26,099 nt of DNA from a virus. Made by a program: the position numbers and the translations under genes. The stretch lies in the IMG/VR virus record IMGVR_UViG_3300021963_000575, positions 1-26,099 of that record, one strand, 5' to 3'. Under the pieces are notes generated by a model. That model did not search any database. It had not been told where the DNA came from and saw only the letters and a list, made by a program, of their open reading frames with translations. Position 1 is the first letter of the stretch; every line of letters starts with the position of its first letter. Below, one piece after another: positions 1,593-19,388 of the stretch.

Positions 1593-1992
1593 GGCAACAG
1601 TTGTTATCGGCTTGGCCGTGCTGTCAGCGTGCAGCACTGCCGAGTCGAATGACACGACAACTCTGGTGGCACTTGAGACGAGCACCGTCGCAACTGTGCC
1701 GCCGTCCAATACAACGTACTACTCGCCCGCAAAGATCGCCTTTGTTGACGATGTGTACTACTACTACGGGGCATCCGTGCCCCTTGGTGCCGATGACCTA
1801 CTTGAGTTTGGTGACACCTGGTGCTATGCACTAGAGACGGGCATGGGTGTGTCAGATGTATCAGAGCGCATAAGAGAGGGCGCTATTGATAACAACGACG
1901 CGAACCTCCACTACGCGATCGTTAGGGCGGCAGTGTTCAACCTGTGCCCCGAGCAGCAATACAAGTGGATTGACGTTGCTAACAGCAGATAA
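1582..1992 (+). CDS. Lipoprotein, DUF732-like
   Basis: This 136-residue protein has a lipoprotein signal: a short basic N terminus, a hydrophobic core and the lipobox LSAC with Cys17 as the lipidated residue. A Thr/Ser-rich linker (about residues 18-45) leads to a C-terminal domain with the pattern LLEFGDTWC...G..VSDV...AIVRAAVFNLCP, which resembles DUF732, a small secreted domain common in mycobacteria; its two Cys would plausibly form a disulfide. The start is TTG, chosen for the AAGGAGGAACC five bases or so upstream. The mature protein should sit on the outer face of the membrane. In a phage this would suit a moron-type or superinfection-exclusion role, but that is inference. Confidence 0.8.
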   Translation: MLSKATVVIGLAVLSACSTAESNDTTTLVALETSTVATVPPSNTTYYSPAKIAFVDDVYYYYGASVPLGADDLLEFGDTWCYALETGMGVSDVSERIREGAIDNNDANLHYAIVRAAVFNLCPEQQYKWIDVANSR

Positions 1993-2001
1993 GGAGAGGT
2001 A

Positions 2002-2490
2002 ATGGACATGCGTTACGAGATAGCCCAGGCTATGCGCAAAATCCCCGACCACGCACCTGACATCAAGGACTTCTTCCCAGACGGGATCCGCTTTGACAAT
2101 GGTGAGTGGGAAATTGACGATGTTGTCAAGCTGTACGAGTACAAGCACGAGCACTTCTGGCATAACATCGCCCAGTCTGCCATGCGTGATGAGTTGATTC
2201 CGTGTGCTACGTACATCAACCAAATCCGACGTGAGATCGGGCTTGATAAGGACGAGGATGAAGAGTTCTTTGAGCGCCTTATGTTCGCTGGCTCACTTGT
2301 CAGTGAAGACCGTAGGTACCGAGCACTATCGGACGACGAGCGTGAGGAGATCGACCTTATCCGTAAGGACCTCAACGAACAGTTTGCCGACCCCGAATCG
2401 GAGTTCAACAATGTCTTGGCTCAGGCAATGGATGCGGTGAACTCCAAGATGGATGACATCGAGTCTCTCAACAAATTACTGGAGGAATGA
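2002..2490 (+). CDS. Hypothetical acidic helical protein
   Basis: This 162-residue protein starts after AAGGAGAGGTA; a second in-frame ATG lies two codons later. It is acidic and predicted almost entirely helical, with a likely coiled-coil at the C terminus (about residues 110-160). There are no cysteine motifs, P-loop or membrane segments, and I do not recognise the family. The stop is directly followed by the ParA-like gene, whose ribosome site (GGAGGAATG) lies in the last codons here, so the two are probably co-translated. Confidence 0.8.
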   Translation: MDMRYEIAQAMRKIPDHAPDIKDFFPDGIRFDNGEWEIDDVVKLYEYKHEHFWHNIAQSAMRDELIPCATYINQIRREIGLDKDEDEEFFERLMFAGSLVSEDRRYRALSDDEREEIDLIRKDLNEQFADPESEFNNVLAQAMDAVNSKMDDIESLNKLLEE

Positions 2491-2491
2491 C

Positions 2492-3007
2492 ATGACAAGG
2501 AACATCTGCCTAGTGTCTAGCAAGGGTGGTCAAGGTATCACCACTACCACCTTGTTGCTGGCCCGGAGTTTCGAGGAGCAGGGCCTCACTGTTGCTGTCG
2601 TCGATAAGGATGACGGTGACCTGAGGGCTGCGATGGGCGTCCCATACACTGATGACGCCACTTACCGAGTAACCGATAAGGTTACGTGGCACCGTCACGG
2701 AACAGTTGTCGAGGCTGACGTTGCTATCTACGACAACTGTGTACCCCACACCAACAAGTACGAAACGTACGTGGTTGTGCGTAACTGCTACCTGTCCATC
2801 AGGCGCAACATGGACACACCTGGTGATGGCGTAATCGTTGTGTTGGATAAGGCACGAGCCCTTACCGATTCTGACGTACAGTCAGTGCTTCGTAAGCCTG
2901 TGTCTGTGGTGGTGCCCATCGACAACGCCATCGTCAAGAAGGTGGATGCCGGTCTGTTCGACAGGCTCCCCACCAAGTTCACCATTGACCCACTAGTAAC
3001 TAGCTAA
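2492..3007 (+). CDS. ParA/MinD-like ATPase (short form)
   Basis: This is a 171-residue P-loop ATPase of the ParA/MinD (SIMIBI) class. The deviant Walker A KGGQGITT is at residues 11-18, the A' region VVDKDDGD at about 38-45, and a Walker-B-like VAIYD at about 76-80. Ordinary ParA proteins have 200-300 residues, so this is a minimal form without an N-terminal DNA-binding region. Such proteins move or position DNA by ATP-dependent cycling on the nucleoid, usually with a ParB-type partner; a ParB-like gene follows at 3499. The frame is open to 2453, but ATG 2492 fits the ribosome site GGAGGA. Two CTAG-N3-CTAG sites lie in this gene, one across the Walker A codons and one at the last codons. Confidence 0.85.
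   Translation: MTRNICLVSSKGGQGITTTTLLLARSFEEQGLTVAVVDKDDGDLRAAMGVPYTDDATYRVTDKVTWHRHGTVVEADVAIYDNCVPHTNKYETYVVVRNCYLSIRRNMDTPGDGVIVVLDKARALTDSDVQSVLRKPVSVVVPIDNAIVKKVDAGLFDRLPTKFTIDPLVTS
2510..2520 (+). repeat. CTAG-N3-CTAG site 3
   Basis: Reads CTAGTGTCTAG then C, lying over the codons L-V-S-S just before the Walker A of the ParA-like gene. Confidence 0.7.
2993..3003 (+). repeat. CTAG-N3-CTAG site 4
   Basis: Reads CTAGTAACTAG then C, at the last codons of the ParA-like gene. Confidence 0.7.
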
Positions 3008-3017
3008 GGAGAACCAC

Positions 3018-3371
3018 ATGAAGAAGTACAAGTTCAAGTTCCCCGCCACGATCAGCATGACAAGTGAGGACCTCTTCGATCATTTGATCGGGTCAGGCGC
3101 CAGTTGTTATCCGTGGTGGCGAACTGTTGACCTGAACGATGAAGGATTCCTCCTGCTTGAAGCAGACAGCGAGACCGACATCGACGGAGTAGAGCCCCCC
3201 ATCAGCAAAACGTTGACCATCGACGAGGTTGTTGCTGGGATTCAGGCTATGCTTGACGACCCCAAGTGCCCCGAGTCGGTCACGTGGGCGTTTCAAAACG
3301 ACGACATTGACTCGGACGCAGCGGACGTAATTCTTCAGACGCTGTTGTTCGGTCAGACAATCTTCGCATAG
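3018..3371 (+). CDS. Conserved hypothetical protein
   Basis: This is a 117-residue soluble acidic protein preceded by AAGGAGAACCAC, a ribosome site used repeatedly in this operon. The pattern HLIGSGASCYPWWRTVDL followed by SKTLTIDEVVAGI and a C-terminal segment with DADVIL-like spacing resembles a family common in actinophages whose function is unknown to me. No catalytic residues can be assigned. The gene lies between the ParA-like and ParB-like genes and is followed by a 127-base non-coding structured leader. Confidence 0.8.
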   Translation: MKKYKFKFPATISMTSEDLFDHLIGSGASCYPWWRTVDLNDEGFLLLEADSETDIDGVEPPISKTLTIDEVVAGIQAMLDDPKCPESVTWAFQNDDIDSDAADVILQTLLFGQTIFA

Positions 3372-3377
3372 AGTCGG

Positions 3378-3445
3378 TGGCGTGCTGGCACACGCCAACG
3401 AATGGTCTTGTTCGCAAGACCACAACGAGCCGCAATCGTGGCGGC
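3378..3445 (+). ncRNA. Structured leader with three hairpins upstream of the ParB-like gene
   Basis: Three perfect hairpins occur in a row in the non-coding gap. Arms 3378-3384 and 3391-3397 form a 7-bp stem with a 6-base loop. Arms 3404-3410 and 3415-3421 form a 7-bp stem with a TTCG loop. Arms 3429-3433 and 3441-3445 form a 5-bp stem with the loop AATCGTG. None is followed by a T-run, so they are unlikely to be terminators. A 5' leader RNA acting on the downstream gene is the likeliest reading. The third hairpin recurs at 11869-11889. Confidence 0.55.
3429..3445 (+). repeat. AATCGTG-loop hairpin, copy 1
   Basis: A 5-bp GC stem encloses the 7-base loop AATCGTG and is followed by GTCC and an A-run. 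The copy at 11869-11889 has the same loop and the same 3' GTCC, with two stem pairs changed on both sides so that pairing is kept. A 5-bp stem with a 7-base loop recalls a tRNA arm, but the loop lacks the conserved anticodon-loop and T-loop bases. Confidence 0.6.
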
Positions 3446-3466
3446 GTCCCAAAACCCGGGGTTCTC

Positions 3467-3502
3467 ATGGCCCTGGTTACCAACCAAGGAGGGTTACTTT
3501 GA
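3467..3502 (+). CDS. Possible leader peptide (11 codons)
   Basis: A short ATG-initiated frame encodes MALVTNQGGLL and stops at TGA. That stop overlaps the TTG start of the ParB-like gene (TTGA), and the frame contains that gene's AAGGAGG ribosome site. A weak GGGG lies upstream as a possible ribosome site. Translation of this frame would control access to the downstream start. It could equally be a chance frame. Confidence 0.25.
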   Translation: MALVTNQGGLL

Positions 3503-4332
3503 GAGTAACACTTGAAACCATCACACCGCAGGATGCCGAACGGCTACTGCAGTACAACGCGGGTAATCGCTTCATCCGCAAGAAGCGTGTTGCCCTCTAT
3601 GCCAAGCAGATGGCCAATGGCCAGTGGCGGGCAACCGGTGAAGCACTCAAGTTCAGTAGTACTGGCCGTCTTCTCGATGGTCAGCACAGACTTCACGCTG
3701 TGGTTTTGGCAGGCGTGCCTACCCAGTTCTTGGTCATCCGTGACCTCGATGATGAAGTTTTCAAAGTACTGGACAGCGGGCTTGCCCGTGGTGCTTCGGA
3801 CGTTGTCCGTTCGCTCGGAGTTGGCAGTCCCAGTGATGCCAGTGCAATCACTCGCATGTACCTAGTGGCTAGCAGTGGGTTGAACCCGGCTAACACGAAC
3901 GTCATGACGCTTGTGACGAAGACAGACATCGCTTCCTACGTCGAGACCCACAAGGATCTTCTGACGGAGACAACCAGCGTATCGCGCAATACCCGCAATG
4001 CTGTGGGTGGGTCCACTACGTCTTGGGGTGCTGCGAGGCTCATGGCTTCCGACACTGTTGGTGTTGCGGAGTTCGACAAGTTTGTTGCCGGAGTTGTCTC
4101 TGGCGCTGGCCTTTCGGCTGGCGACCCGAGGTTGGCTTTGCGCAACTGGCTTAGCCGTAACTTCAAGCCGAGTACTTCTGGTGTTACCGCTGCGGTGCAC
4201 CTCGGTACGTACATGAAGGCATTCGTTGCCTACCTCAACGGGGATCAGATCCACCTGCTCAGGACGTGGGATCCCAAAAAGCCCATGCCCATTCCGGTGG
4301 CCACCCCGTCATCGGTCATCTTCACTAGCTGA
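3499..4332 (+). CDS. ParB-like N-terminal domain protein
   Basis: This 277-residue protein starts at TTG. The start was chosen for AAGGAGG at 3486-3492 and because the conserved region (RVTLETITPQDAERLL) begins right there; the frame itself is open to 3382 through the structured leader. Residues 1-90 carry NRFIRKKRVALYAKQM and LLDGQHRLHAVVLAGVP, the latter at about residues 58-74. This resembles the DGxHRxxA signature of ParB/Srx-fold proteins and a family common in actinobacterial phages. The C-terminal half is helical without a clear HTH. ParB proteins bind centromere-like sites and work with ParA, and a ParA-like gene lies 0.5 kb upstream. A CTP-binding or nuclease role cannot be decided by eye. 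Confidence 0.8.
   Translation: MRVTLETITPQDAERLLQYNAGNRFIRKKRVALYAKQMANGQWRATGEALKFSSTGRLLDGQHRLHAVVLAGVPTQFLVIRDLDDEVFKVLDSGLARGASDVVRSLGVGSPSDASAITRMYLVASSGLNPANTNVMTLVTKTDIASYVETHKDLLTETTSVSRNTRNAVGGSTTSWGAARLMASDTVGVAEFDKFVAGVVSGAGLSAGDPRLALRNWLSRNFKPSTSGVTAAVHLGTYMKAFVAYLNGDQIHLLRTWDPKKPMPIPVATPSSVIFTS
3862..3872 (+). repeat. CTAG-N3-CTAG site 5
   Basis: Reads CTAGTGGCTAG then C, inside the ParB-like gene (codons L-V-A-S). Confidence 0.7.
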
Positions 4333-4343
4333 CCATTCACCAC

Positions 4344-4376
4344 GGTGGTGCCCTAGCGGCTAGCTGGGGCACCACC
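4344..4376 (+). promoter_or_regulatory. 10-bp hairpin with a CTAG-N3-CTAG site in its loop
   Basis: A perfect 10-bp inverted repeat (GGTGGTGCCC and GGGCACCACC) encloses a 13-base loop that carries most of a CTAG-N3-CTAG site. It lies 12 bases after the ParB-like stop and shortly before the ribosome site AAGGAGAACCACC of the next gene. No T-run follows. It may be a U-less terminator or attenuator, or a structured protein-binding site. Confidence 0.55.
4353..4363 (+). repeat. CTAG-N3-CTAG site 6
   Basis: Reads CTAGCGGCTAG then C, at the loop of the 10-bp hairpin at 4344-4376 in a non-coding gap, so coding constraint cannot explain it. Confidence 0.7.
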
Positions 4377-4395
4377 ACAATCAAGGAGAACCACC

Positions 4396-4824
4396 ATGAC
4401 CACAACCATTGAACACAAGTTCCAAGCCTTTGAAAAGGCATACGAAGAGGCATGCGACTGGGATTCAGTCCATTCTCTGTGGTCCATCAGTGCTGAGACG
4501 AACGGTCCCGCGTTGGCCGTACACGTCAGTGACTTTGATGAGCCTTATGAAATGGTCGACGCGTTTGTTGACCTCGGAATCGAGGGTCGAGCGATGGTCG
4601 TCATGTACGGGTGGGCGGCACCTTACAAGCCAGGCGAAGACGACACACGCCCGTCTCAACACGAAGCCCGTATCAGGGTCAGGTTGTACATCTTCCTTGA
4701 CCACGGTACGGTGTACACCGCTATGCGTATGCGGGGAGGAGAGTTGGACACCGACATGAGTGATGCTGGTGGTCCTCTCGACGAAGCAATCAAGGAAGCA
4801 ATCAACAGGAAGAAGAACAAGTGA
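4396..4824 (+). CDS. Hypothetical protein, possible paralogue of 247-798
   Basis: This is a 142-residue soluble protein of unknown function with the ribosome site AAGGAGAACCACC. Alternating charged and hydrophobic stretches (AVHVSDFDEP, AMVVMYGW, RVRLYIFLDHGTVYTA) suggest a beta-sheet domain, followed by a C-terminal helix with a Lys-rich tail. The order HVS..DEP, Y-E-M, LDHGTVY matches segments of the 183-residue protein at 247-798. The stop overlaps the GTG of the next gene (GTGA). Confidence 0.8.
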   Translation: MTTTIEHKFQAFEKAYEEACDWDSVHSLWSISAETNGPALAVHVSDFDEPYEMVDAFVDLGIEGRAMVVMYGWAAPYKPGEDDTRPSQHEARIRVRLYIFLDHGTVYTAMRMRGGELDTDMSDAGGPLDEAIKEAINRKKNK

Positions 4825-5057
4825 GTACCAAGATCAACGTCCATGCCAACAACGACAAGGACCGAGTGTCCTTGGAGACGAACACCTATGACCACACCAA
4901 CGGTTCTGCGATTAGGTTTCACACGATTGAACTGTCGTACGCTGGAATCAACATCGTACTGTTCGTGAATGACGATGAGGCACTCATCGACTCCCTCAAC
5001 AAGGTCATCGACGGCGCTCAGGCCAAGCTCGATGCCATGTTGTCCGTGGGTGTCTAG
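4821..5057 (+). CDS. Small hypothetical protein
   Basis: This 78-residue protein starts at GTG in a GTGA overlap. It appears to have a beta-rich N-terminal half and a C-terminal helix (about residues 52-74, DDEALIDSLNKVIDGAQAKL). The family is not recognised. Its TAG stop lies inside a CTAG-N3-CTAG site and shares its last base with the next GTG start, the same arrangement as at 795-805. Confidence 0.75.
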   Translation: MSTKINVHANNDKDRVSLETNTYDHTNGSAIRFHTIELSYAGINIVLFVNDDEALIDSLNKVIDGAQAKLDAMLSVGV

Positions 5058-5064
5058 TGGCTAG
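5054..5064 (+). repeat. CTAG-N3-CTAG site 7
   Basis: Reads CTAGTGGCTAG then C, over a TAG stop and GTG start, as at site 1. Confidence 0.7.
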
Positions 5065-5374
5065 CAACTTCAGTGACGGGGCCTGTTACATAGTGATAGG
5101 CCCCGTCACATGGGAAGACACGGGGACCACCGAGCACCATACGATCATTGTCGATCCTTCTTTGGAATACGACATTGACGAGGATGGTGAAGCCTTGTAC
5201 GTAGCTGAGTCTGCTGGCGAAGTGTTCGACCTAGTAGCCAACATGCACGACAGCCCTAATTTTGGATGGGTTCTCAACGACATTACCTGTGTCAAGTACA
5301 TGGGAAAGGTCTACGAGGGCGCTGCTGCCTGGAACAAGTTGGAGTCAATCCATTTGGAGGAGATCAATGCCTAA
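5057..5374 (+). CDS. Hypothetical acidic protein
   Basis: This is a 105-residue acidic protein starting at GTG within the CTAG-N3-CTAG site at 5054-5064, coupled to the upstream stop. It has beta-like segments (CYIVIGPVTW, HHTIIVDP) and no catalytic motif. It overlaps the next gene by 8 bases; the GGAGGAGATC that serves the next gene lies in its last codons. Confidence 0.75.
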   Translation: MASNFSDGACYIVIGPVTWEDTGTTEHHTIIVDPSLEYDIDEDGEALYVAESAGEVFDLVANMHDSPNFGWVLNDITCVKYMGKVYEGAAAWNKLESIHLEEINA

Positions 5375-6065
5375 CTGGTGTTCTAACTACACAACGGTGT
5401 ACGGCCCTAAAGATAAGCTTCAAAAGTTTATCGATAAGGTAACACCTGCTTACCCGAAGCTTCATGGAGAGATCTCTTTGAAGCGGTTGATGCCAATGCC
5501 TATGGTGCTTCGCAAGCCACCTAAGCATCTGGCTCACAAGTTCTCAAAGTTTCCCATCAGCCAGGAAGAGAAGGAAATAGCTGACGCCAAAGCTGCGGAT
5601 TACACGGCTCTCTGCATTGAGAAGACTGGGTACTCCGACTGGTACCCATGGGCTGACGTCAACTGGGGTACCAAGTGGGGTGACTGCGAAACCCGTGTAC
5701 TCACCCCGCTATCACCTCTCAAAGAAGCGGTCGATCTATGGACTGGTGCTAAGGACATCCATTACATCGAGTTTGCCTACGACACGGCGTGGGGACCGTT
5801 CTGCACGACGTTTTGGGAAAAGGTGTCAAAGAAATACAAGGGACTTGTGTTTGTTACAAAGTTTCACGAACCTGGCATGGACTTCCTGGGCATCTACGTC
5901 ACTCGCGATGGTGTTACCAAAGTCTCTATCGAAGAGCGCATCAGTGAAGTTTCTACCGCACCAGATGACGGTGAGTGGAACGAAGAGTTCTGGGCACAGA
6001 TGTACGACTTCTTAAACAAGCAAGAAGAAATCGGAGTAATGAGAGTTGGCTTATGCCTAAAGTAA
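5367..6065 (+). CDS. Api92-like protein with ferredoxin-like fold
   Basis: This 232-residue protein begins MPNWCSNYTTVYGP and has WADVNWGTKWGDCETRV (about residues 92-108), FAYDTAWGPF (about 135-144) and FVTKFHEPGMDFLGIY. This is the signature of the Api92/DUF1281-type family with a ferredoxin-like domain, found in phages and mobile elements and of unknown biochemical role. The frame is open to 5262, but the family's invariant MPNWCSN start and the GGAGG ten bases upstream fix the start at 5367. It overlaps the previous gene by 8 bases and the next by 13. Confidence 0.85.
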   Translation: MPNWCSNYTTVYGPKDKLQKFIDKVTPAYPKLHGEISLKRLMPMPMVLRKPPKHLAHKFSKFPISQEEKEIADAKAADYTALCIEKTGYSDWYPWADVNWGTKWGDCETRVLTPLSPLKEAVDLWTGAKDIHYIEFAYDTAWGPFCTTFWEKVSKKYKGLVFVTKFHEPGMDFLGIYVTRDGVTKVSIEERISEVSTAPDDGEWNEEFWAQMYDFLNKQEEIGVMRVGLCLK

Positions 6066-6298
6066 CCTTGTCGAGTAAGAGGTACATCTACTACACGTAT
6101 GTTCGTGAGATCATCGTGTTGGCTGTTGCCTCCCGTACATTGATGTACGGAAATCACAACGTGTTTCAAGCACTGGCTTTGCTAGTCACTATCCACAGCA
6201 TGGCCAAGCTGGTGCTAACAACTGTGTACGCACAGTGGCGTGCAGATAACAACTGGGACACAGAAGTTGATGTGCCTGACGACATCCTGAGGCGGTGA
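6053..6298 (+). CDS. Small probable membrane protein
   Basis: This 81-residue protein has two hydrophobic stretches, about residues 18-34 (VREIIVLAVASRTLMYG) and 43-62 (VFQALALLVTIHSMAKLV), suggesting a two-helix membrane hairpin with a charged C-terminal tail. The frame is open to 5975, but the ATG at 6053 is more plausible for length and hydrophobic layout. The ribosome site is weak, and the 13-base overlap with the Api92-like gene suggests coupling. A holin is possible from the topology, but the early-gene context argues against it. Confidence 0.6.
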   Translation: MPKVTLSSKRYIYYTYVREIIVLAVASRTLMYGNHNVFQALALLVTIHSMAKLVLTTVYAQWRADNNWDTEVDVPDDILRR

Positions 6299-6302
6299 CT
6301 AC

Positions 6303-7739
6303 ATGAGTACCCCAATACCTACGACCACGCTTCTTCCACACCAGGAGGAGGCTGTGGGCTTTGTCCTCGCCAACCAGCATGCTTATCTTGCCCTTGATAT
6401 GGGCTTAGGTAAGACTGCTGTGGCCATCAGTGTCATCTCTCGTGTAGCTGAGCGTGGCCTTGCGCCAGCATTGGTGGTGGTGCCTCCATCCCTACGCACA
6501 ACGTGGGTCAAGGAGGTAGCCAAGTTTGCGCCCCACCTGACTACCCATGTCATCAAGGGTATGCAGACTAACCCTCTGCCACTTGCTGACGTGTACATCA
6601 TTGGTGACTCAGTCATCAGTGAGTGGGTAGACCCCAAGGATCCCAACTCACTGCTAGGTAAGTTCAGGGTGATCGTGGTAGACGAAGCGCATCGAGAGAA
6701 GAACTTCAGCGCCAGACGTACCAAGGCGGTCATGCGATTGGCCAACACAGTCAATGGCATACGGCTGCTCATGTCAGGTACCCCAGTACCTAACGGACGC
6801 AACCAGGAGATCGGTACTCAGATCGACATCCTTGGTGACAAGGCATGGAAGGCAATCGGCGGTAAGAGTAAGTTCTGGAACTACTACTGCCCTGTAGAGC
6901 GTGACGCCAACGGCAAGCTAAACAAGTACGGTAAGCGTGCCAACATCGACTCGCTCGGGCTCCATGAGGCGCTGACGTCTTCGTTCATGCACCGTCGCAA
7001 ACGTGGTGATGTCCTAAATCTGCCCAACAAGGGTCGCGCACCTTTGTACACCGAGGGTATGGGTAAGGCTGTCGACGACTATCTACTAGCCGAGCGTGAC
7101 CTTATCTCTTACCTGGCTGGTGAGGGTAAGAACTGGCGTGCGGCTGTACGTAACGAGGCGCTGGTAAAGATCACCACCATGCGCAAGCTCGCTGGTGAGT
7201 GCAAGGTCAAAGCCGTTATCGAACATGCCAAAGAGTTCCTTAACGACACAAAGCATAACGACGTACCCCCTGGCCTGTTCATCGTGGCTGAGCATCACAG
7301 TGTGATGCAGCCGTTGTTTGAGGGGTTAGAGAGTTACGGTGCTGTCATGTACAACGGTTACATGAAAGACTTCGAGAAAGACGAATCGGTAGAGCTGTTC
7401 ACCAACGGTGATGCTCGGGTGCTCATCGGGCAGATCAAATCAGTTGGTGTAGGGCTTACCCTGCACGGTGGAGGGAGGAACCACAATGTAATCATCGCAC
7501 AACTACCTTGGTCGCCTGCGGATCTAACCCAGGCAGAGGACAGGTTGCACCGCATCGGGCAAATATCAGACGTTGATGTCGAGATATGCCTGGCCAGTAT
7601 TGATGGCACCTGGACTATCGACGAACGCCTGTGGGCGCTTCTTGAACAGAAAGCGTTTTCATCAGGAGAGATCGTCGATGGTAAGGGAGAGTTCTTACTA
7701 GACGAACTCCAGGACAGCCTCATCGACACCTACCGCTAG
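6303..7739 (+). CDS. SNF2-type DEAH-box helicase/translocase
   Basis: This 478-residue superfamily 2 ATPase has motif I DMGLGKT at residues 32-38, motif Ia around VVVPPSL (58-64), motif II DEAH at 127-130, motif III SGTP at 158-161, and motif VI QAEDRLHRIGQ at about 410-420. Motif VI, GVGLTL and AQLPWSPADLTQAEDR are characteristic of the SNF2 group, close to the SMARCAL1/HARP-like branch. Such proteins move on dsDNA and can anneal strands or displace proteins, and phages use them in replication or recombination. No extra DNA-binding domain is visible. The TAG stop lies in the CTAG-N3-CTAG site at 7736-7746, which also runs into the ribosome site of the next gene. Confidence 0.92.
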   Translation: MSTPIPTTTLLPHQEEAVGFVLANQHAYLALDMGLGKTAVAISVISRVAERGLAPALVVVPPSLRTTWVKEVAKFAPHLTTHVIKGMQTNPLPLADVYIIGDSVISEWVDPKDPNSLLGKFRVIVVDEAHREKNFSARRTKAVMRLANTVNGIRLLMSGTPVPNGRNQEIGTQIDILGDKAWKAIGGKSKFWNYYCPVERDANGKLNKYGKRANIDSLGLHEALTSSFMHRRKRGDVLNLPNKGRAPLYTEGMGKAVDDYLLAERDLISYLAGEGKNWRAAVRNEALVKITTMRKLAGECKVKAVIEHAKEFLNDTKHNDVPPGLFIVAEHHSVMQPLFEGLESYGAVMYNGYMKDFEKDESVELFTNGDARVLIGQIKSVGVGLTLHGGGRNHNVIIAQLPWSPADLTQAEDRLHRIGQISDVDVEICLASIDGTWTIDERLWALLEQKAFSSGEIVDGKGEFLLDELQDSLIDTYR

Positions 7740-7746
7740 TAGCTAG
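7736..7746. repeat. CTAG-N3-CTAG site 8
   Basis: Reads CTAGTAGCTAG then G; its rightmost bases begin the ribosome site of the next gene, and the left ones hold the SNF2 stop. It is the only site lacking a following C on the plus strand. Confidence 0.65.
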
Positions 7747-7754
7747 GAGAAACC

Positions 7755-7943
7755 ATGCCAATCATCAAGTCATCCTCCAAGGGTGAGCAACTCACCACGG
7801 TGATCTTCACGGAGCAGGAGATCAAGTCATTGATCCACCTGCTTGCCAGCGGGTCATTCAATGCCGACGACGAAACGTACGACGCAGTCGAGTCTTTGCA
7901 AGACATGTTGTACGCATTCGCCATCGACGTTAATTACGTGTGA
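7755..7943 (+). CDS. Small acidic protein, last gene before a terminator
   Basis: This 62-residue protein has the ribosome site TAGGAGAAACC. A predicted strand (LTTVIFTEQEIKSLIHLL) and a helix rich in Asp, Glu and Ala follow. The family is not recognised. The stop TGA and the last codons lie inside the left arm of the 15-bp terminator hairpin, so the 3' end is shaped by the terminator. Confidence 0.75.
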   Translation: MPIIKSSSKGEQLTTVIFTEQEIKSLIHLLASGSFNADDETYDAVESLQDMLYAFAIDVNYV

Positions 7944-7963
7944 CTTCGGTCACACGTAATTAA
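7930..7963 (+). terminator. 15-bp hairpin with C(TTCG)G loop
   Basis: A perfect 15-bp inverted repeat, 7930-7944 and 7949-7963, is closed by the exceptionally stable C(UUCG)G tetraloop. The lower stem is A/T-only (TTAATTA), giving a short U-containing tail on either strand, so it can act in both directions. It separates the SNF2 unit from the MoxR/VWA unit. The left arm includes the stop codon of the preceding gene. Confidence 0.85.
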
Positions 7964-7972
7964 TTGCAACGA

Positions 7973-7996
7973 CCTACCTTATGCAGATAAGGTGGG
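7973..7996 (+). promoter_or_regulatory. Inverted repeat and possible promoter ahead of the MoxR gene
   Basis: ACCTTAT and ATAAGGT (7976-7982 and 7987-7993) form a perfect 7-bp repeat around GCAG, extendable to 10 bp with one G-T pair. TTGCAA at 7964-7969, spaced 17 bases from ATAAGG, could be a -35/-10 pair, although this -10 is weak. Its place between a strong terminator and a gene supports a promoter with an overlapping operator. A 5' RNA hairpin is the alternative. Confidence 0.4.
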
Positions 7997-8028
7997 GTAC
8001 ACCACCAACAACAACAAGGAGAACCACA

Positions 8029-9234
8029 ATGGTTGCAGCCAAGGCCCTGCACAAGGGCATGTCTGTCATCGTCAACTCGGGACCTTTCAAGGGGCTGACG
8101 GCTACTGTCATCAACCCCGAGGTGTTTCCCGACGGACACCCTGACCAGCGCAAGGTTGTTGTCGATATCAATGGCGTTGGGGAAGTCAACATCATCCCCA
8201 AGCAGTTGAACATCGGCACCGGCCTTACCCCCACGGTCAGCACGACGACCACCCACGACGAGCCTTACCTCAAGGCGCCCAAGGTGGTTTCGGCCACCAC
8301 CCCCATCACCTCCCTCGACGACCCGGCACTTGACCGTTGGCGTCCGTCCCGTCCCAACCTGCTCAAGGAGTACGTCAGCCGTACCCTTCCTGACGGCAAG
8401 ATTGACACCGACGTCATGCTCACTATGTGGCGTGACGCACGTGTCAACGGGTATGCCCCCAACGTTGGGCTTGTCGGTGACACCAGCACCGGTAAGACCA
8501 TGCTCGTAGAAGTCATGGCCCATCTCGTCGCTAAGGAGATGGGGTTGTCCAAGCCCCTCCCCATCTTCCTGCTCGCGGGTGACAGCGCTATCACTGACCA
8601 CGACATGTTCGGCCAGTACCGTCCTGACGAGAACGGCGACCTGGTGTGGATGGAAGGCATCGTTGCGCTAGCCGCTAGGCTCGGCGGTATCTTGTACCTT
8701 GACGAAATCAATGCCATGCCTGGCAACGTTACGTCAGCCCTCCACCCTCTGTGTGACGACCGACGTCAGTTCGTCAACATCCGTCGCCCAGTCGATGACG
8801 GCCACGGTGGCAAGATGGCCGAGGTTGTGTACGCCAGTCGTGACCTGTGGATCATCTCCACTTACAACCCCGGTTATGCAGGTATGTCTCGTACCAACGA
8901 GGCTTTCGCTGCCAGGTTTGAATGGTTGCCGTGGGATTACAACGACGACGTTGAGCGTAAGCTCATCAAGTCGCCTGCTATCCGACTGCTTGGCCAGGCA
9001 CTGCGCAGTGCACGTGACACCCGTGCCATCTCCACTCCGGTGGGTACCTCTGCACTTCAGAGGCTCGAGCGCAACGTCGCACTCTTCGGAGTTGACTTCG
9101 CACTCTTCGCCTTTGCTGGGCGCTTTACCTCCAAGTCCGAGAAGGCTGTGGTTGACACCATCATCGAGGATCGTAGTATCCGAGTGATGCTCAACACCGA
9201 GGTGTCCTCACCCAAAGAACCAGACACCAACTGA
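8029..9234 (+). CDS. MoxR-type AAA+ ATPase with N-terminal KOW-like domain
   Basis: This 401-residue protein has a KOW/SH3-like N-terminal segment (residues 7-60, KGMSVIVNSGPFKGLTATV) and an AAA+ core with Walker A GDTSTGKT at 150-157, Walker B ILYLDEINAM at about 220-229, and a sensor region with ISTYNPGYAG. The wording LDEINAM and NPGY is typical of MoxR/CobS/GvpN-type ATPases. These pair with VWA-domain proteins to insert metals or remodel complexes, and a VWA gene follows directly. The start is the ATG after ACAACAAGGAGAACCAC; the frame is open to 7981, through the inverted repeat. A reverse-oriented CTAG-N3-CTAG site lies at 8668. Confidence 0.92.
   Translation: MVAAKALHKGMSVIVNSGPFKGLTATVINPEVFPDGHPDQRKVVVDINGVGEVNIIPKQLNIGTGLTPTVSTTTTHDEPYLKAPKVVSATTPITSLDDPALDRWRPSRPNLLKEYVSRTLPDGKIDTDVMLTMWRDARVNGYAPNVGLVGDTSTGKTMLVEVMAHLVAKEMGLSKPLPIFLLAGDSAITDHDMFGQYRPDENGDLVWMEGIVALAARLGGILYLDEINAMPGNVTSALHPLCDDRRQFVNIRRPVDDGHGGKMAEVVYASRDLWIISTYNPGYAGMSRTNEAFAARFEWLPWDYNDDVERKLIKSPAIRLLGQALRSARDTRAISTPVGTSALQRLERNVALFGVDFALFAFAGRFTSKSEKAVVDTIIEDRSIRVMLNTEVSSPKEPDTN
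8668..8678 (-). repeat. CTAG-N3-CTAG site 9
   Basis: On the minus strand it reads CTAGCGGCTAG then C, the same core as site 6, inside the MoxR gene. Confidence 0.65.
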
Positions 9235-9246
9235 TAAGGAGTAACC

Positions 9247-11307
9247 ATGTCAATGTTTGAAGAGGTTATACCTCATAACGACGAAGACATAGATGATGAC
9301 TCGCTGTCCCCCCAGCTAGCGGGTAGGCAAGTGATGACTCGTAAGGAGCTCATCAACTCTCGGGCCCGTATGCGTAATGCGGTTAACCGTGATGCCAAAG
9401 AAGCTGAAGAGCGTGCTCGCAACACTGCCTCGATGCTTCTTTCGTACAACGAGCGTGAGGACTGGTACCGCCAACGTAATGAACGGCGTAACAAATATGA
9501 GAGTGTTGCTTACGGCGTAACGAACATGGCCAACAAGGTGTTACAGAGCCTTGATATCAATGTTCCTCTGCGTGTCGATGCTGACCCACACACCCGCAGC
9601 TACGGCATCACCGACTACGAGTCAATCGACATAACGCTTCACATTCCGGAAAGCGATATCGATACCGTCAGCAACACAGAAGTGTTGTCCGACCTGGTGT
9701 TTAAAGCCAAGGGTATGGTGTACCACGAAGGTGGCCATATCATGTGGACCTACCCCTTTGACAACCTTGTCACGGAGGTTACGGGCATGATCGGTACGGA
9801 CGGTTGTGCCTCCATCATCAAGTCGGTAATCGGTGAGTACGTAGCTAAGCATGCACCATCATTGCTTAGTGATTACACCGATATGGTGTCTAAGTACTCC
9901 ATAAGCCATTTCATCACCCGCATGATGTTCCCAGCTTGGGGCGTACTTGAAGACCAACGCATGGAGACTGCCATGTGTTATACCTCACCAATCATGTCTC
10001 GGTACTTCACCGAGATTGTGTTGGCATGCGTCATTGATCCGCAACACCCAGGTACTGCCTGGCCATGGGTTGCTGGGCGCACCTACTTGCCGAGCAACAT
10101 CCGTCAACTTCTCAGAGAATTGGCTGAGACTAACGGGTTCAGCCAAGTCATCGACGACATAAACGAGCAAGTGTTCAAGTACCGTAAGTCAAACGATGTA
10201 CTTGAGATGTTCGAATGTGTAGTTCGTATGTCTGAACTCATGTACATTTGGTATCAGGGGTGCCCTAGTGAAACCAAGCAGCCCCGCAACGAGCACGGTA
10301 GTAAGTCTGGTAGTGGTGGTGCTAAACAGTTGCCTGTTGTACCTAACCCATATGAACACGATATGGAGCAGCCCAACAAGGTCAAGGGTAGCCAATCCCC
10401 CAGCGAAGGCCAGGGAGAGGAACAGGACAAGGGCGAGGGTGACCCCCAATCCAGTGGTCCATCAACTTCCGGTGACCTAGCCAGTCAGTACGGCAAGCTT
10501 GCTGACAACGAGCGTGCCAAGCAGGCCAACGCTACACGCAAAGACGAGGTTGACTCAGTGGCGTCTGATATCAACAAGCATCGCAATGCTGATATCAAAC
10601 CGTATGCTAACCCATACGCAATGTCATCCGATGAGGTAGAGAAGACCAAGGTTGTGGCTAACGGTATGATCTCGGTGCTTGAGTCGCTTCACTCACAGGT
10701 TGACCCCAGCTGGAGGTTCTACCAAGAGCATGGTGTGCTTGACCCCGTAGCGTTCAGCATGGCTGAGCCCGGTGATGACCGTTACTGGTCAGGCCTCGAC
10801 GATATCGGTGCTAATGGGCATAACCTTGCGGTGTCGATCTTGTTGGACGTATCGGGTTCCATGGGTGGCCATGCTGAGGAACTGTCTATATCAGCTATGG
10901 GTATTCGCAAGGCTTGTGAGTACTTCTCCATCCCGTGTACTATCACTACGTTCAGCGACTTAGCTAGGATGTTTGTTGAGGGAGACACCGAAGAGGCGGA
11001 CTTCATATCCATCTCCGTGGGCGGTGGCACTAACGTGTATGGTGCCATCAGTAAAATGCCTGACCAAACATACGGCAAGCAGAACCACTTAGTGCTCATC
11101 TTGACTGACGGCGAATGGTCTGATGTCGAGGACATCCGACCGTGGGTTGACAACAACAAGTACATCATCTTGGTTGGCTTTAGGATGTACGACCAAGCAA
11201 TCAACAAGATGCGCAAGAAGGGTGCCAACGAGGTGATCAACATCAACGAACTCAGTAAGCTTCCTCAGCTTATGACTAGTGCGCTAGCTGGGTTCATGGC
11301 CAAATGA
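9247..11307 (+). CDS. VWA (CobT-like) protein with HEXXH motif
   Basis: This is a 686-residue partner for the MoxR-type ATPase. Residues 1-330 include HEGGH at 160-164 and LEDQRME at 234-240. That pairing is found in CobT-like and predicted metallopeptidase proteins and could bind zinc, with Glu161 as catalytic residue. Residues about 335-440 are a disordered linker rich in Gly, Ser, Glu, Gln and Pro. The C-terminal VWA domain has the MIDAS motif DVSGSMGG at 534-541, a GGTN segment and LILTDGEW. In CobS/CobT the pair drives cobalt insertion; in phages the substrate is unknown. The gene starts after TAAGGAGTAACC, 12 bases from the MoxR stop, so they are one unit. Confidence 0.9.
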   Translation: MSMFEEVIPHNDEDIDDDSLSPQLAGRQVMTRKELINSRARMRNAVNRDAKEAEERARNTASMLLSYNEREDWYRQRNERRNKYESVAYGVTNMANKVLQSLDINVPLRVDADPHTRSYGITDYESIDITLHIPESDIDTVSNTEVLSDLVFKAKGMVYHEGGHIMWTYPFDNLVTEVTGMIGTDGCASIIKSVIGEYVAKHAPSLLSDYTDMVSKYSISHFITRMMFPAWGVLEDQRMETAMCYTSPIMSRYFTEIVLACVIDPQHPGTAWPWVAGRTYLPSNIRQLLRELAETNGFSQVIDDINEQVFKYRKSNDVLEMFECVVRMSELMYIWYQGCPSETKQPRNEHGSKSGSGGAKQLPVVPNPYEHDMEQPNKVKGSQSPSEGQGEEQDKGEGDPQSSGPSTSGDLASQYGKLADNERAKQANATRKDEVDSVASDINKHRNADIKPYANPYAMSSDEVEKTKVVANGMISVLESLHSQVDPSWRFYQEHGVLDPVAFSMAEPGDDRYWSGLDDIGANGHNLAVSILLDVSGSMGGHAEELSISAMGIRKACEYFSIPCTITTFSDLARMFVEGDTEEADFISISVGGGTNVYGAISKMPDQTYGKQNHLVLILTDGEWSDVEDIRPWVDNNKYIILVGFRMYDQAINKMRKKGANEVININELSKLPQLMTSALAGFMAK

Positions 11308-11345
11308 TCATCGTAAGCAGTAACACAACAGAAAGGGATATCATC

Positions 11346-11702
11346 ATGAATGATTCACTAGAAGACACCGCCAGGGAATACCTTGGTGTTAAGCGGGCAA
11401 TCGACGACTTGACCGAGAGGCTCAAGGGCCTTGATAAGTCCATCAAGCAGATGATGGTCGATCAAGACCTCAAGAAGCTCAGCCTCGATGGTAAGTCAAT
11501 TAGCCTTGTGCAGTACCCACAACGATCCTTCAAGATCGACGAGCTGCGTAAGCTGATCTCGGCTTCTACCTTCAACTTGGTAACGGAGCCCAAAGTATCC
11601 ACAGAGATGTTCGACTCAGCAGTCAATGTTGGCAAGATCTCTCAAGAAGTTGCTGACCAAGTCACCGTCAAGACTCCGGTGGCTCAACTCAGGGTCAAGT
11701 AA
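11346..11702 (+). CDS. Coiled-coil hypothetical protein
   Basis: This 118-residue protein has a likely coiled-coil at residues 5-45 (ERLKGLDKSIKQMM) and a basic C-terminal half with SISLVQYPQRSF. It resembles small phage proteins of unknown role found near replication genes. The frame also opens at ATG 11304, which would overlap the VWA stop (ATGA) and add 14 residues. The ATG at 11346 is preferred because GAAAGGGA lies 6 bases upstream. It ends the unit before the structured non-coding region. Confidence 0.8.
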   Translation: MNDSLEDTAREYLGVKRAIDDLTERLKGLDKSIKQMMVDQDLKKLSLDGKSISLVQYPQRSFKIDELRKLISASTFNLVTEPKVSTEMFDSAVNVGKISQEVADQVTVKTPVAQLRVK

Positions 11703-11712
11703 CAAGGCGTAA

Positions 11713-11889
11713 GGGCAAGATAACCGACCTCCCGCCTCTCACTCCTTTCTGAGGTGGAGCTTGCCCTCCCCTGGCCGAGTGACGCACAATGCCTCTGTAG
11801 GGTTTGTTGCGCCTGCAAGTCATAGTGCTACAGCACTTGGCCAGGGGTGAGTTCGGTTAGACTGAAGCACAGCGCAATCGTGGCGCTGT
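11713..11889 (+). ncRNA. Structured RNA ahead of the HNH gene (hairpin, three-way junction, hairpin)
   Basis: The 201-base gap before the HNH gene is dense in perfect pairings. GGGCAAG (11713-11719) pairs with CTTGCCC (11760-11766), with an inner pairing at 11727-11731 and 11751-11755. One base later CCCCTGGCC (11768-11776) pairs with GGCCAGGGG (11839-11847). This encloses two arms: CGCACAA (11783-11789) with TTG and TGCG at 11804-11811, and AGTGC with GCACT (11824-11837). A third hairpin at 11869-11889 has the AATCGTG loop. CCCTCC at 11764-11769 is complementary to GGAGGG in the ribosome site at 11895-11900, so an alternative fold could hide that site. A leader or cis-regulatory RNA is inferred. 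Confidence 0.6.
11869..11889 (+). repeat. AATCGTG-loop hairpin, copy 2
   Basis: A perfect 7-bp stem surrounds the loop AATCGTG (11876-11882). Compared with copy 1 at 3429-3445, pairs 4 and 5 from the loop change from C-G and G-C to G-C and A-T, so pairing is preserved while sequence changes. The ribosome site AAAGGAGGG and the HNH start follow within 15 bases. Confidence 0.6.
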
Positions 11890-11903
11890 CCAAAGGAGGG
11901 TCT

Positions 11904-12374
11904 ATGAGCCTGTGTCGTGGTCCGGTGTGTAACCGCAAAGTCGTATCAAAAGGGTTATGCGCTGCTCACTATAAGCAAATGCAACGAGATGGCGTGTTGC
12001 ACGTCATCGAAGATTCCAAGCTGCCAGAAGATAAGTTCTGGAAGAACATAAAAAAGACAGACGATGGGTGTTGGCTGTGGACAGGGCCTGTGGATAAGGG
12101 TTATGGCCGCATGTACGTGGGCAATAAGGCGTACCAAGTACACCGCTGGTCATATGAACAGCATAAGCACGTAAGCCTTACCAAGGCAGAGACATTAGAT
12201 CACCTATGCCGTAACACTACGTGCTGTAACCCAGAGCATCTCGAGAAGGTGTCGTTGATCGAGAACATCGAGAGGCAGCACCTGTACCACGCCCTTAACG
12301 CGGAGATCAAACGCCTAAGGGATTTCCTAACCGATATCGGATACAACCCCGACACCTTACAAAAGGAGATGTAA
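11904..12374 (+). CDS. HNH endonuclease (HNH_3 type)
   Basis: This 156-residue protein starts after AAAGGAGGG; the frame runs open to 11847, through the hairpin. Residues 1-30 form a small zinc-finger-like segment (CRGPVC, GLCAAHY). The nuclease core has the HNH_3 pattern FWKNIKK..DGCWLWTG..DKGYG, then HRWSYE, then DHLCRNTTCCNPEHL with the catalytic His and metal-binding residues, then LIENIERQ. The C-terminal 30 residues look helical. Proteins of this type are free-standing homing endonucleases or nicking enzymes in many phages. The stop overlaps the next start (TAATG). The strongly folded leader is unusual for such genes. Confidence 0.9.
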   Translation: MSLCRGPVCNRKVVSKGLCAAHYKQMQRDGVLHVIEDSKLPEDKFWKNIKKTDDGCWLWTGPVDKGYGRMYVGNKAYQVHRWSYEQHKHVSLTKAETLDHLCRNTTCCNPEHLEKVSLIENIERQHLYHALNAEIKRLRDFLTDIGYNPDTLQKEM

Positions 12375-17954: not shown

Positions 17955-19388
17955 TTACTGCTCGTCAATGTTTATTACATCGGCTATGAACTGGTCGGTC
18001 ATAGACCGATCCAACCCTCCACCGGGTAGTTGTCGGGAAACCTCTCCGGCCTTGGCTCCAAACAACCTAGACAAGACACCGGCGTTACCACGGGCCTCAA
18101 CTTCCATGCGGATGACGTCTCGATTGTCAGAGATGTTCTTGAACTTGTCGACCAGCGAGAAAAGCCTGTCCATTTCTGACGACAGGGCCGGGTCCAGCCC
18201 CTGACCCTCCAGCTCTTCAGCAAACCTGGCAAACAAAACACGGCTGGCTTGCATCTCAATCATGGCCTGTAGTACTGCTTGTAGTTGATCCTTGGTGCGT
18301 ATCTCTACAGGCAGTTTGAAGCCACAATCGGAATGTTCGCGGAATGCAGGACAACGGGCCGCCAGGTAGCAACTATCACACTGTCGCAGTGGGTTCGATT
18401 GATACCGGATTACAGGGGTCTCTTCAGGGCTGATTTCAATGTATTCCCCCTGCTCAGACTCACTTTGTGTACCCATTGAAAGGATGCTCTCAATGCCCAT
18501 AACCGGTAGTAATACACGGTCACTGTCGTGCCGCTTTTCTAGTTGACCGGTAGCAATAGTTGGTGGCCTCGACACCGCTTTAGGTGGGGTAACCGTTTCA
18601 TGGGGTATATCAACTATCTCCCCACTTTCACTGTTTACGAACTCCTCTTCATCACCAATCTCTTGGGGGTCATAGGCCCCAAAAGACTTGGTCTCCCATG
18701 CCATCCAAGAACGAATCGCCAGGGTGCCTAATGCACTCACATCGTCTTCCATGACGGCCTCGTAGTCGACCCCCAAACGGAGGATGTCTGGGCGGTGCTT
18801 TTTACGTGACGACTCTTTTTGCTGGGCCGGGTAACGGCGTAGTCCGTGCCCGTCCCATACCTGGGTTTCGCCGTAGCGGATAGTAGATGTCCAAGAACCG
18901 ACGACCACGGCGTCCCATGGGAGAGCTTCAATGATGTCTGGCTTGCTGGTGAGCCCAATTAGGTTGGCGTTCCACCGCTGTGACAGCGACCGGATTCTGG
19001 GGGTGGTCTTAGATGTGACGGCCTTGTCCGAGATGGCGGCACGCCCATACCTCTGGCATAGCCAGGCTAATCGTTCCAGATCGTCGTTGTCCGACCATAG
19101 GGGGATGTACTTATCCCCCATCCAGTCACCGTCATACCCTGGGCGTCCTACAACGTATGTCAGGTCGTCGATGTGCTGGCGTACAAAGTCGGTGTAACGG
19201 TTTTCGTCCTCGTCATTTTCAGACGTGTACAAAAGAACCTCAGCGTTGTTGAACACCGTGGGGATGTGAAACTCTTTGATCTTGGGGATCGGTAGATGGG
19301 TAAGGTTTACAGCCATATGCTTTACGTTGTTAGCGATAAGCATGTTTCTGTGGGCGCCCTTTTCGGCACCGCCTAGGAATACTCTCAC
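17955..19388 (-). CDS. Large conserved phage-type protein with C-terminal zinc-like motif
   Basis: This 477-residue protein begins MRVFLGGAEKGAHRN; a longer frame exists to 19400, but GTG 19388 has GGAGAG upstream and makes a GTGA overlap with the HAD-like gene stop. The N-terminal half resembles proteins common in large actinophages. Residues about 350-370 have CDSCYLAARCPAF..HSDCGF, a likely zinc-binding cluster, then helices with TKDQLQAVLQAMIEMQASRVLF. A terminase-small-subunit-like or packaging role has been suggested for similar C-terminal parts, but I cannot confirm it. The C-terminal tail is flexible. Confidence 0.85.
   Translation of the reverse strand: MRVFLGGAEKGAHRNMLIANNVKHMAVNLTHLPIPKIKEFHIPTVFNNAEVLLYTSENDEDENRYTDFVRQHIDDLTYVVGRPGYDGDWMGDKYIPLWSDNDDLERLAWLCQRYGRAAISDKAVTSKTTPRIRSLSQRWNANLIGLTSKPDIIEALPWDAVVVGSWTSTIRYGETQVWDGHGLRRYPAQQKESSRKKHRPDILRLGVDYEAVMEDDVSALGTLAIRSWMAWETKSFGAYDPQEIGDEEEFVNSESGEIVDIPHETVTPPKAVSRPPTIATGQLEKRHDSDRVLLPVMGIESILSMGTQSESEQGEYIEISPEETPVIRYQSNPLRQCDSCYLAARCPAFREHSDCGFKLPVEIRTKDQLQAVLQAMIEMQASRVLFARFAEELEGQGLDPALSSEMDRLFSLVDKFKNISDNRDVIRMEVEARGNAGVLSRLFGAKAGEVSRQLPGGGLDRSMTDQFIADVINIDEQ

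Follow-up and report, generated by a model that had tools for sequence, protein, structure and literature searches.

The two hairpins that precede a ParB-like and an HNH gene in this phage probably both belong to a dispersed cis-acting RNA element, which would be read by a factor and would mark a single operon. In the initial annotation of the window (the whole analysed stretch of 26,099 nt), hairpins at 3429-3445 and 11869-11889 were said to share the loop AATCGTG and the following GTCC, to differ on both sides at pairs 4 and 5, counted from the loop, with pairing kept, and to lie in leaders before AAGGAGGG ribosome sites of the two genes. All of this was confirmed for both hairpins, and the idea of a phage-specific element was borne out by many more copies in IMG/VR relatives. 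The window features concerned are the following.

1676..1708, + strand: third copy AGACGAGCACCGTCGCAACTGTGCCGCCGTCCA, exact core; match to covariance model R1 of 18.4 bits
3417..3449, + strand: copy 1, degenerate, AGAC-CACAACGAGCCG-CAATCGTG-GCGGC-GTCC, exact core; ParB-like leader
3429..3445, + strand: annotated hairpin 1, GCCGC-AATCGTG-GCGGC, then GTCC (register A)
3486..3493, + strand: Shine-Dalgarno sequence AAGGAGGG of the ParB-like gene
3499..4332, + strand: ParB-like gene, start TTG at 3499; PHROG 5931 (E 7e-65), no Pfam match, ParB-like by inspection
6982..7014, + strand: possible fourth copy, core CAAACGTG-GTGAT-GTCC, exact core; in the helicase gene
11768..11847, + strand: inverted repeat CCCCTGGCCGAGTG ... 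CACTTGGCCAGGGG, just 5' of copy 2
11858..11863, + strand: TAGACT box resembling a -10, sharing bases with the 5' arm (AGAC) of copy 2
11859..11891, + strand: copy 2, degenerate, AGAC-TGAAGCACAGCG-CAATCGTG-GCGCT-GTCC, exact core; HNH leader
11869..11889, + strand: annotated hairpin 2, ACAGCGC-AATCGTG-GCGCTGT (register A); six inner pairs covary in orthologues
11893..11900, + strand: Shine-Dalgarno sequence AAGGAGGG of the HNH gene
11904..12374, + strand: HNH endonuclease gene, start ATG at 11904; HNH matches in PHROGs and Pfam
17955-19388, - strand: DpdA-like / queuine tRNA-ribosyltransferase homologue

In the IMG/VR relatives the element spans 33 nt with the consensus [A/G]GAC-N12-CAANYGTG-N5-GTCC(AA), in full RGAC-N5-CACR-NNGCAAN-YGTG-N5'-GTCC and then AA. 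Where the hairpin is best formed, it has 13 bp and the 7-nt loop NNGCAAN; GGAC, found 13-16 nt 5' of the core, pairs with the GTCC 29 nt downstream of it across an interval of two 9-nt arms and the 7-nt loop, and CGTG is in most copies the inner 3' part of the stem, with CACR as its partner. The predicted fold is about -32 kcal/mol for copies like GGACGGGCGCACGCCGCAATCGTGCGCCCGTCC and about -4 to -12 kcal/mol for the window and HNH copies. The arms vary with compensation and the loop CAA, YGTG and the GTCCAA tail are fixed in sequence, which points to recognition by a factor. When column information was computed for 52 non-redundant copies, only the element and its GTCCAA were conserved within about 50 nt.

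The pairing was assessed in two sets of copies. In 19 aligned copies, some of them picked for good pairing, standard pairs occupy 90.7% of the 13 stem positions vs 75.6% with shuffled partners, doubly changed cells number 33 vs 12.2, and a slid-partner control reaches at most 46% paired. Because of this bias a second test used selection by sequence only: with the GAC box required, 84 matches were obtained vs 5 in reversed sequence, and the N5 arm is fully paired in 11 of 63 distinct copies vs 1.0 expected. Mismatches in well-paired copies are of the G-T/T-G kind 23 times vs 4 for A-C/C-A, which fits a sense-strand RNA. Compensatory changes thus exceed both shuffled and slid controls, as in a conserved structured RNA, and covariance model R1 finds the aligned copies again together with additional ones. 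The full 13-bp stem is absent in more than half of the copies, including both window copies, so the structure is not required at every site. Two details of single genomes may be mentioned here. The G038 copies carry the loop CUGCAAA, like a tRNA-Cys anticodon loop, which is probably a coincidence, the U being absent in other copies. In the G035 copies at 78537, 79160 and 83285 the AGAC arm doubles as the 3' arm of an upstream GTCTCA-N3/4-TGAGAC hairpin, so that two mutually exclusive folds are possible; window copy 1 likewise has an alternative upstream hairpin, GGTCTTG-TTCG-CAAGACC.

The core CAANYGTG-N5-GTCC occurs exactly four times in the window (1691, 3433, 6998 and 11875), always on the + strand, vs 0.04 expected; 100 shuffles never equalled this. 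Across 11 long contigs, which are mutually related so that counts are not independent, and with operon edges set when copy positions were already known, 35 exact cores are sense in the operon, none is antisense there and two lie in the other 757 kb. Nearly all copies in long contigs fall within one 14-19 kb block of co-directed genes, which in the window includes ParA-like, ParB-like, SNF2-type helicase, AAA, CobT-like and HNH genes; there are about 3-8 copies per operon, spaced every few kilobases on the sense strand. The same core at fixed spacing precedes unrelated genes, as read in the leaders of other genes in relatives. Many copies lie after a stop codon and before the next Shine-Dalgarno sequence, some separate the final stop codon from a U-tailed terminator (G010:7264, G018:24985, G016:11852), and a minority are intragenic; the annotated role as a leader element therefore describes many copies and not those within genes or just before terminators. 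From the end of the element to the start codon there are 12-13 nt in HNH leaders, about 14-50 nt elsewhere and at some sites more than 50 nt. Where the operon of a lineage contains U-tailed terminators, they stand more often upstream of an element than downstream; in the window's own lineage a search of the operon found none.

Both window copies are degenerate, alternative-register members of the element: AGAC, CAATCGTG and GTCC are correctly spaced, N5' is unpaired with the distal arm, and it pairs instead with the bases immediately 5' of the loop, which gives the annotated hairpins. The stem of hairpin 2 amounts to 7 bp and takes in the G and T of GTCC. Copy 1 can also fold as GCCGC-AATC-GTGGC with a 4-nt AAUC loop, so that the 7-nt loop is uncertain there; it is near-identical in G006 and has the loop CATCGTG in G007, and the ParB-like orthologue of G002 has its own leader copy, GGCGTCGCAATCGTGCCGCCGTCC. 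AATCGTG stands as the loop in the HNH and ParB-like leaders and fails outside them, the family-wide loop being NNGCAAN, and the 7-mer was rejected as a signal in itself, since it occurs in the window 4 times vs 3.07 expected; a 13-mer search allowing mismatches was also at background. The search for further copies that the annotation had advised did yield many in relatives, but with another loop family-wide, and the exact cores at 1691 and 6998 had been overlooked. Just 5' of copy 2, the RNA fold of 11700-11904 has z = -3.6, and by eye several relatives have similar hairpins upstream of the HNH leader copy; the inverted repeat at 11768..11847 is possibly a terminator of the preceding genes. 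Another strong inverted repeat, GTGACGGGGCCTGTTACGTGATAGGCCCCGTCAC, with 17-nt arms and 3 nt between them, lies at a gene start at 5073-5109.

The HNH leaders give the best view of the annotated register. In IMG/VR there are 38 HNH orthologues of 72-100% identity, nearly all with the same leader directly 5', and copy 2 is kept 5' of most of them, in 20 distinct leader sequences. For 17 distinct leaders this register is 82.4% paired vs 75.2% with shuffled partners, with 10 doubly changed cells vs 3.9, a number not reached in any of 500 shuffles. The covariation proposed from two copies thus extends to these leaders, yet one clade breaks some pairs, the innermost included, and can adopt the 4-nt-loop register; conservation of sequence is accordingly stronger than that of structure. 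The annotation had taken a lack of further copies in relatives, or copies with broken stem pairs, as evidence against itself: further copies do exist, and this clade does break pairs. Neither the 4-nt-loop register nor the canonical 13-bp structure, which were tried for the HNH leaders, shows covariation there, and the latter is unsupported.

In most HNH leaders the TAGACT box is present, with plain GGAC instead in L093 and L094; GGAC is retained in two genomes whose preceding gene extends up to the element. Some TAGACT leaders stand behind a U-tailed terminator and others behind a strong hairpin without a U-run. TAGACT is probably a -10 box, and the 5' arm of the element at the HNH gene would have been converted to it, leaving the CAANYGTG-N5-GTCC half to pair with the bases before the loop as a short hairpin. 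A transcript from such a promoter would start near the foot of hairpin 2, which would account for the short hairpin alone being kept there.

The third window copy falls in a T/V/P-rich linker encoded by the gene 1582-1992, which matches DUF732 weakly. G007 maintains this copy with third-position changes, the codons having been read by eye. The fourth has no GAC at the expected position and, among relatives, only G006 and G007 have the match; it is possibly a genuine copy and may also be chance. In-gene matches were seen too in the AAA (CobS-like) gene of several lineages, at positions that are not homologous: GGACG...GCAAACGCCGCCCCGTCCA in the linker of this gene at L145:15951, L160:1488, L190:2879 and L180:9204, either functional or a coding coincidence, and a different element-like match elsewhere in the same gene in G001, G002 and G005.

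DNA searches gave no close cultured relative of the window phage. The nearest relatives in IMG/VR are G006 (92.8 kb; helicase 100% identical), G007 and G002 (95.6 kb), others being more distant, and a search of isolates and MAGs for a close HNH orthologue found none. The helicase and CobT-like proteins are about 22-32% identical to those of Arthrobacter and Gordonia phages, and the DpdA-like protein has a match in Streptomyces phages; judged from these protein matches, an actinobacterial host is likely. The DpdA-like gene suggests, by homology, 7-deazaguanine DNA modification in this phage. The examined stretches of Gordonia phage ChisanaKitsune and Streptomyces phage BRock held no convincing copy, and blastn with a canonical copy returned chance matches only. 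BRock (L246, 1-12000) has several intergenic 12-14 bp hairpins of its own with TTGAC in the loop (GTTGACAT, ACTTGACT, GGCTTGACT), as if the loops presented -35 boxes.

Rfam 15 gave no match at the gathering threshold for the window, and only chance-level matches for window 1600-3600 and for a G002 stretch with three canonical copies. The element belongs to none of the systems compared, since for each of them it lacks a defining trait. The SAS/ESAS of Cluster K mycobacteriophages, a 13-bp GGGATAGGAGCCC repeat at translation starts (PMC3203893; PMC12699233), are likewise repeated motifs of one orientation, confined to part of the genome beside the translation starts of some genes; half have an upstream inverted repeat, and their function is unproven. 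The element differs in being one fused 33-nt hairpin with fixed spacing and covarying arms, found also within genes and before terminators, and GGGATAGGAGCCC itself has only three window matches at 3 mismatches (the criterion being at most 2), below chance expectation. Cluster O mycobacteriophages carry 17-bp inverted repeats, dispersed between and within genes (PMC4351075) as the element is, but with invariant arms and little orientation preference, as in a DNA site, whereas the element has compensating arms and strict orientation. A parS-like site also has invariant arms, unlike the five variable, complementary bases per arm seen here, and an intrinsic terminator has a U-run in place of the GTCCAA tail. 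The leading functional analogy is with HK022 put and lambda nut, which are RNA structures in phage early transcripts acting on elongating polymerase. Lambda nut consists of boxA and boxB and promotes terminator read-through with an N-like protein; the 52 non-redundant copies show no second conserved box. HK022 put is about 70 nt long, with two adjacent stem-loops, one per early promoter (PMC9378689), whereas the element is a single 33-nt hairpin in many copies with no conserved neighbour. The gp43 operators of T4 and RB69 are hairpins upstream of the ribosome site with the loop UAAC or, in a selected variant, CAAC (PMC3014915); in T4 there is one site for one gene, while the element has many sites, a longer stem and the GTCCAA tail.

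The strict orientation, the restriction to a single operon and the compensating stem mutations point to a gene-control signal. We propose that a phage-coded or host RNA-binding factor would recognise the pattern in the transcript, either nascent or finished, and would thereby mark the whole operon. Tentatively, by analogy with nut and put, this factor may load on the elongating polymerase, be re-loaded every few kilobases and sustain transcription through the operon. Processive antitermination usually needs one site and not many, and the many sites together with the lack of a boxA-like box flanking the hairpin argue against it; the terminators, being mostly upstream of the element, do not help it either. 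Somewhat unlikely, though close behind elongation or antitermination in our leaning, is a role in mRNA processing or stability, in which a putative endoribonuclease would cut at the loop or tail, or an exonuclease would be blocked, and the transcript would be split into protected units. The many copies in stop-to-Shine-Dalgarno gaps or between a last stop and a terminator suit this, as do the sequence-specific loop and tail and the precedent of T4 RegB, which cleaves phage intergenic regions at specific sites (PMC3014915), but a cut at the in-gene copy at 1676-1708 would destroy the message, and the weak stems of many copies would protect poorly. A phage protein that represses operon genes from a hairpin before the ribosome site, as gp43 does in T4, would explain why the element lies close to start codons (12-13 nt for HNH, about 14-50 nt for others) and why its CAAN resembles the gp43 operator loop UAAC or the selected CAAC (PMC3014915). 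Pre-terminator copies, however, have no reachable downstream gene on that strand, other copies lie in genes and the distance to a start exceeds 50 nt at some sites, which makes a pure translational operator unlikely.

The remaining alternatives are less probable. Ingham et al. are said to have described, in 1995, intergenic terminators without a U-run in actinophage phiC31; our literature search on phiC31 repeats found no paper. A terminator or attenuator of this kind would agree with GC-rich 13-bp stems right after stop codons and with the operon of the window lineage, where no U-tailed terminators were found, yet it is quite improbable: termination has no need of a conserved loop, YGTG or GTCCAA, the window and HNH copies fold at only about -4 to -12 kcal/mol, and some copies stand immediately 5' of a real U-tailed terminator. 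A DNA-level site, whether operator, partition site or part of a promoter, with the dyad GGAC..CACG..CGTG..GTCC bound by a dimer, is improbable as well, although ParA-like (2453-3007) and ParB-like genes adjoin copy 1, sequence conservation exceeds pairing, GAC mirrors GTC as CACR does YGTG, in HNH leaders the 5' arm shares bases with the TAGACT box, and the Cluster O dyad repeats are thought to be bound by dimeric proteins (PMC4351075). The complementarity of the variable N5 arms would be needless in a duplex, every exact operon copy has one orientation, the mismatches are G-T and not A-C, and GC-rich DNA makes a poor promoter. That two GC-rich hairpins merely look alike by chance, for which the background frequency of the AATCGTG 7-mer could speak, is refuted by the recurrence of copies in a fixed orientation in relatives and has hardly any probability left. 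Three further candidates were rejected: an upstream peptide (frame CGC AAN YGT ...), which by eye has no start codon and in copy 2 meets a stop immediately 5'; an antisense partner in trans, the complement of the core being present on the same strand at low numbers only; and an N4-like hairpin promoter on the template strand, disfavoured by the asymmetry of mismatches, which points to the sense strand.

It is a real possibility, if not a probable one, that the element represents a novel class of operon-marking RNA, in which short hairpins, lying between genes and also within them, would tag the transcript every few kilobases for a dedicated factor of elongation, processing or decay, without a close phage counterpart. 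To our knowledge, few systems act on a whole transcript in this manner, namely nut, put and SAS/ESAS. Oriented RNA elements kept along one operon in divergent genomes imply a layer of control on the whole transcript, and the element can serve as a marker for this uncultured phage group.
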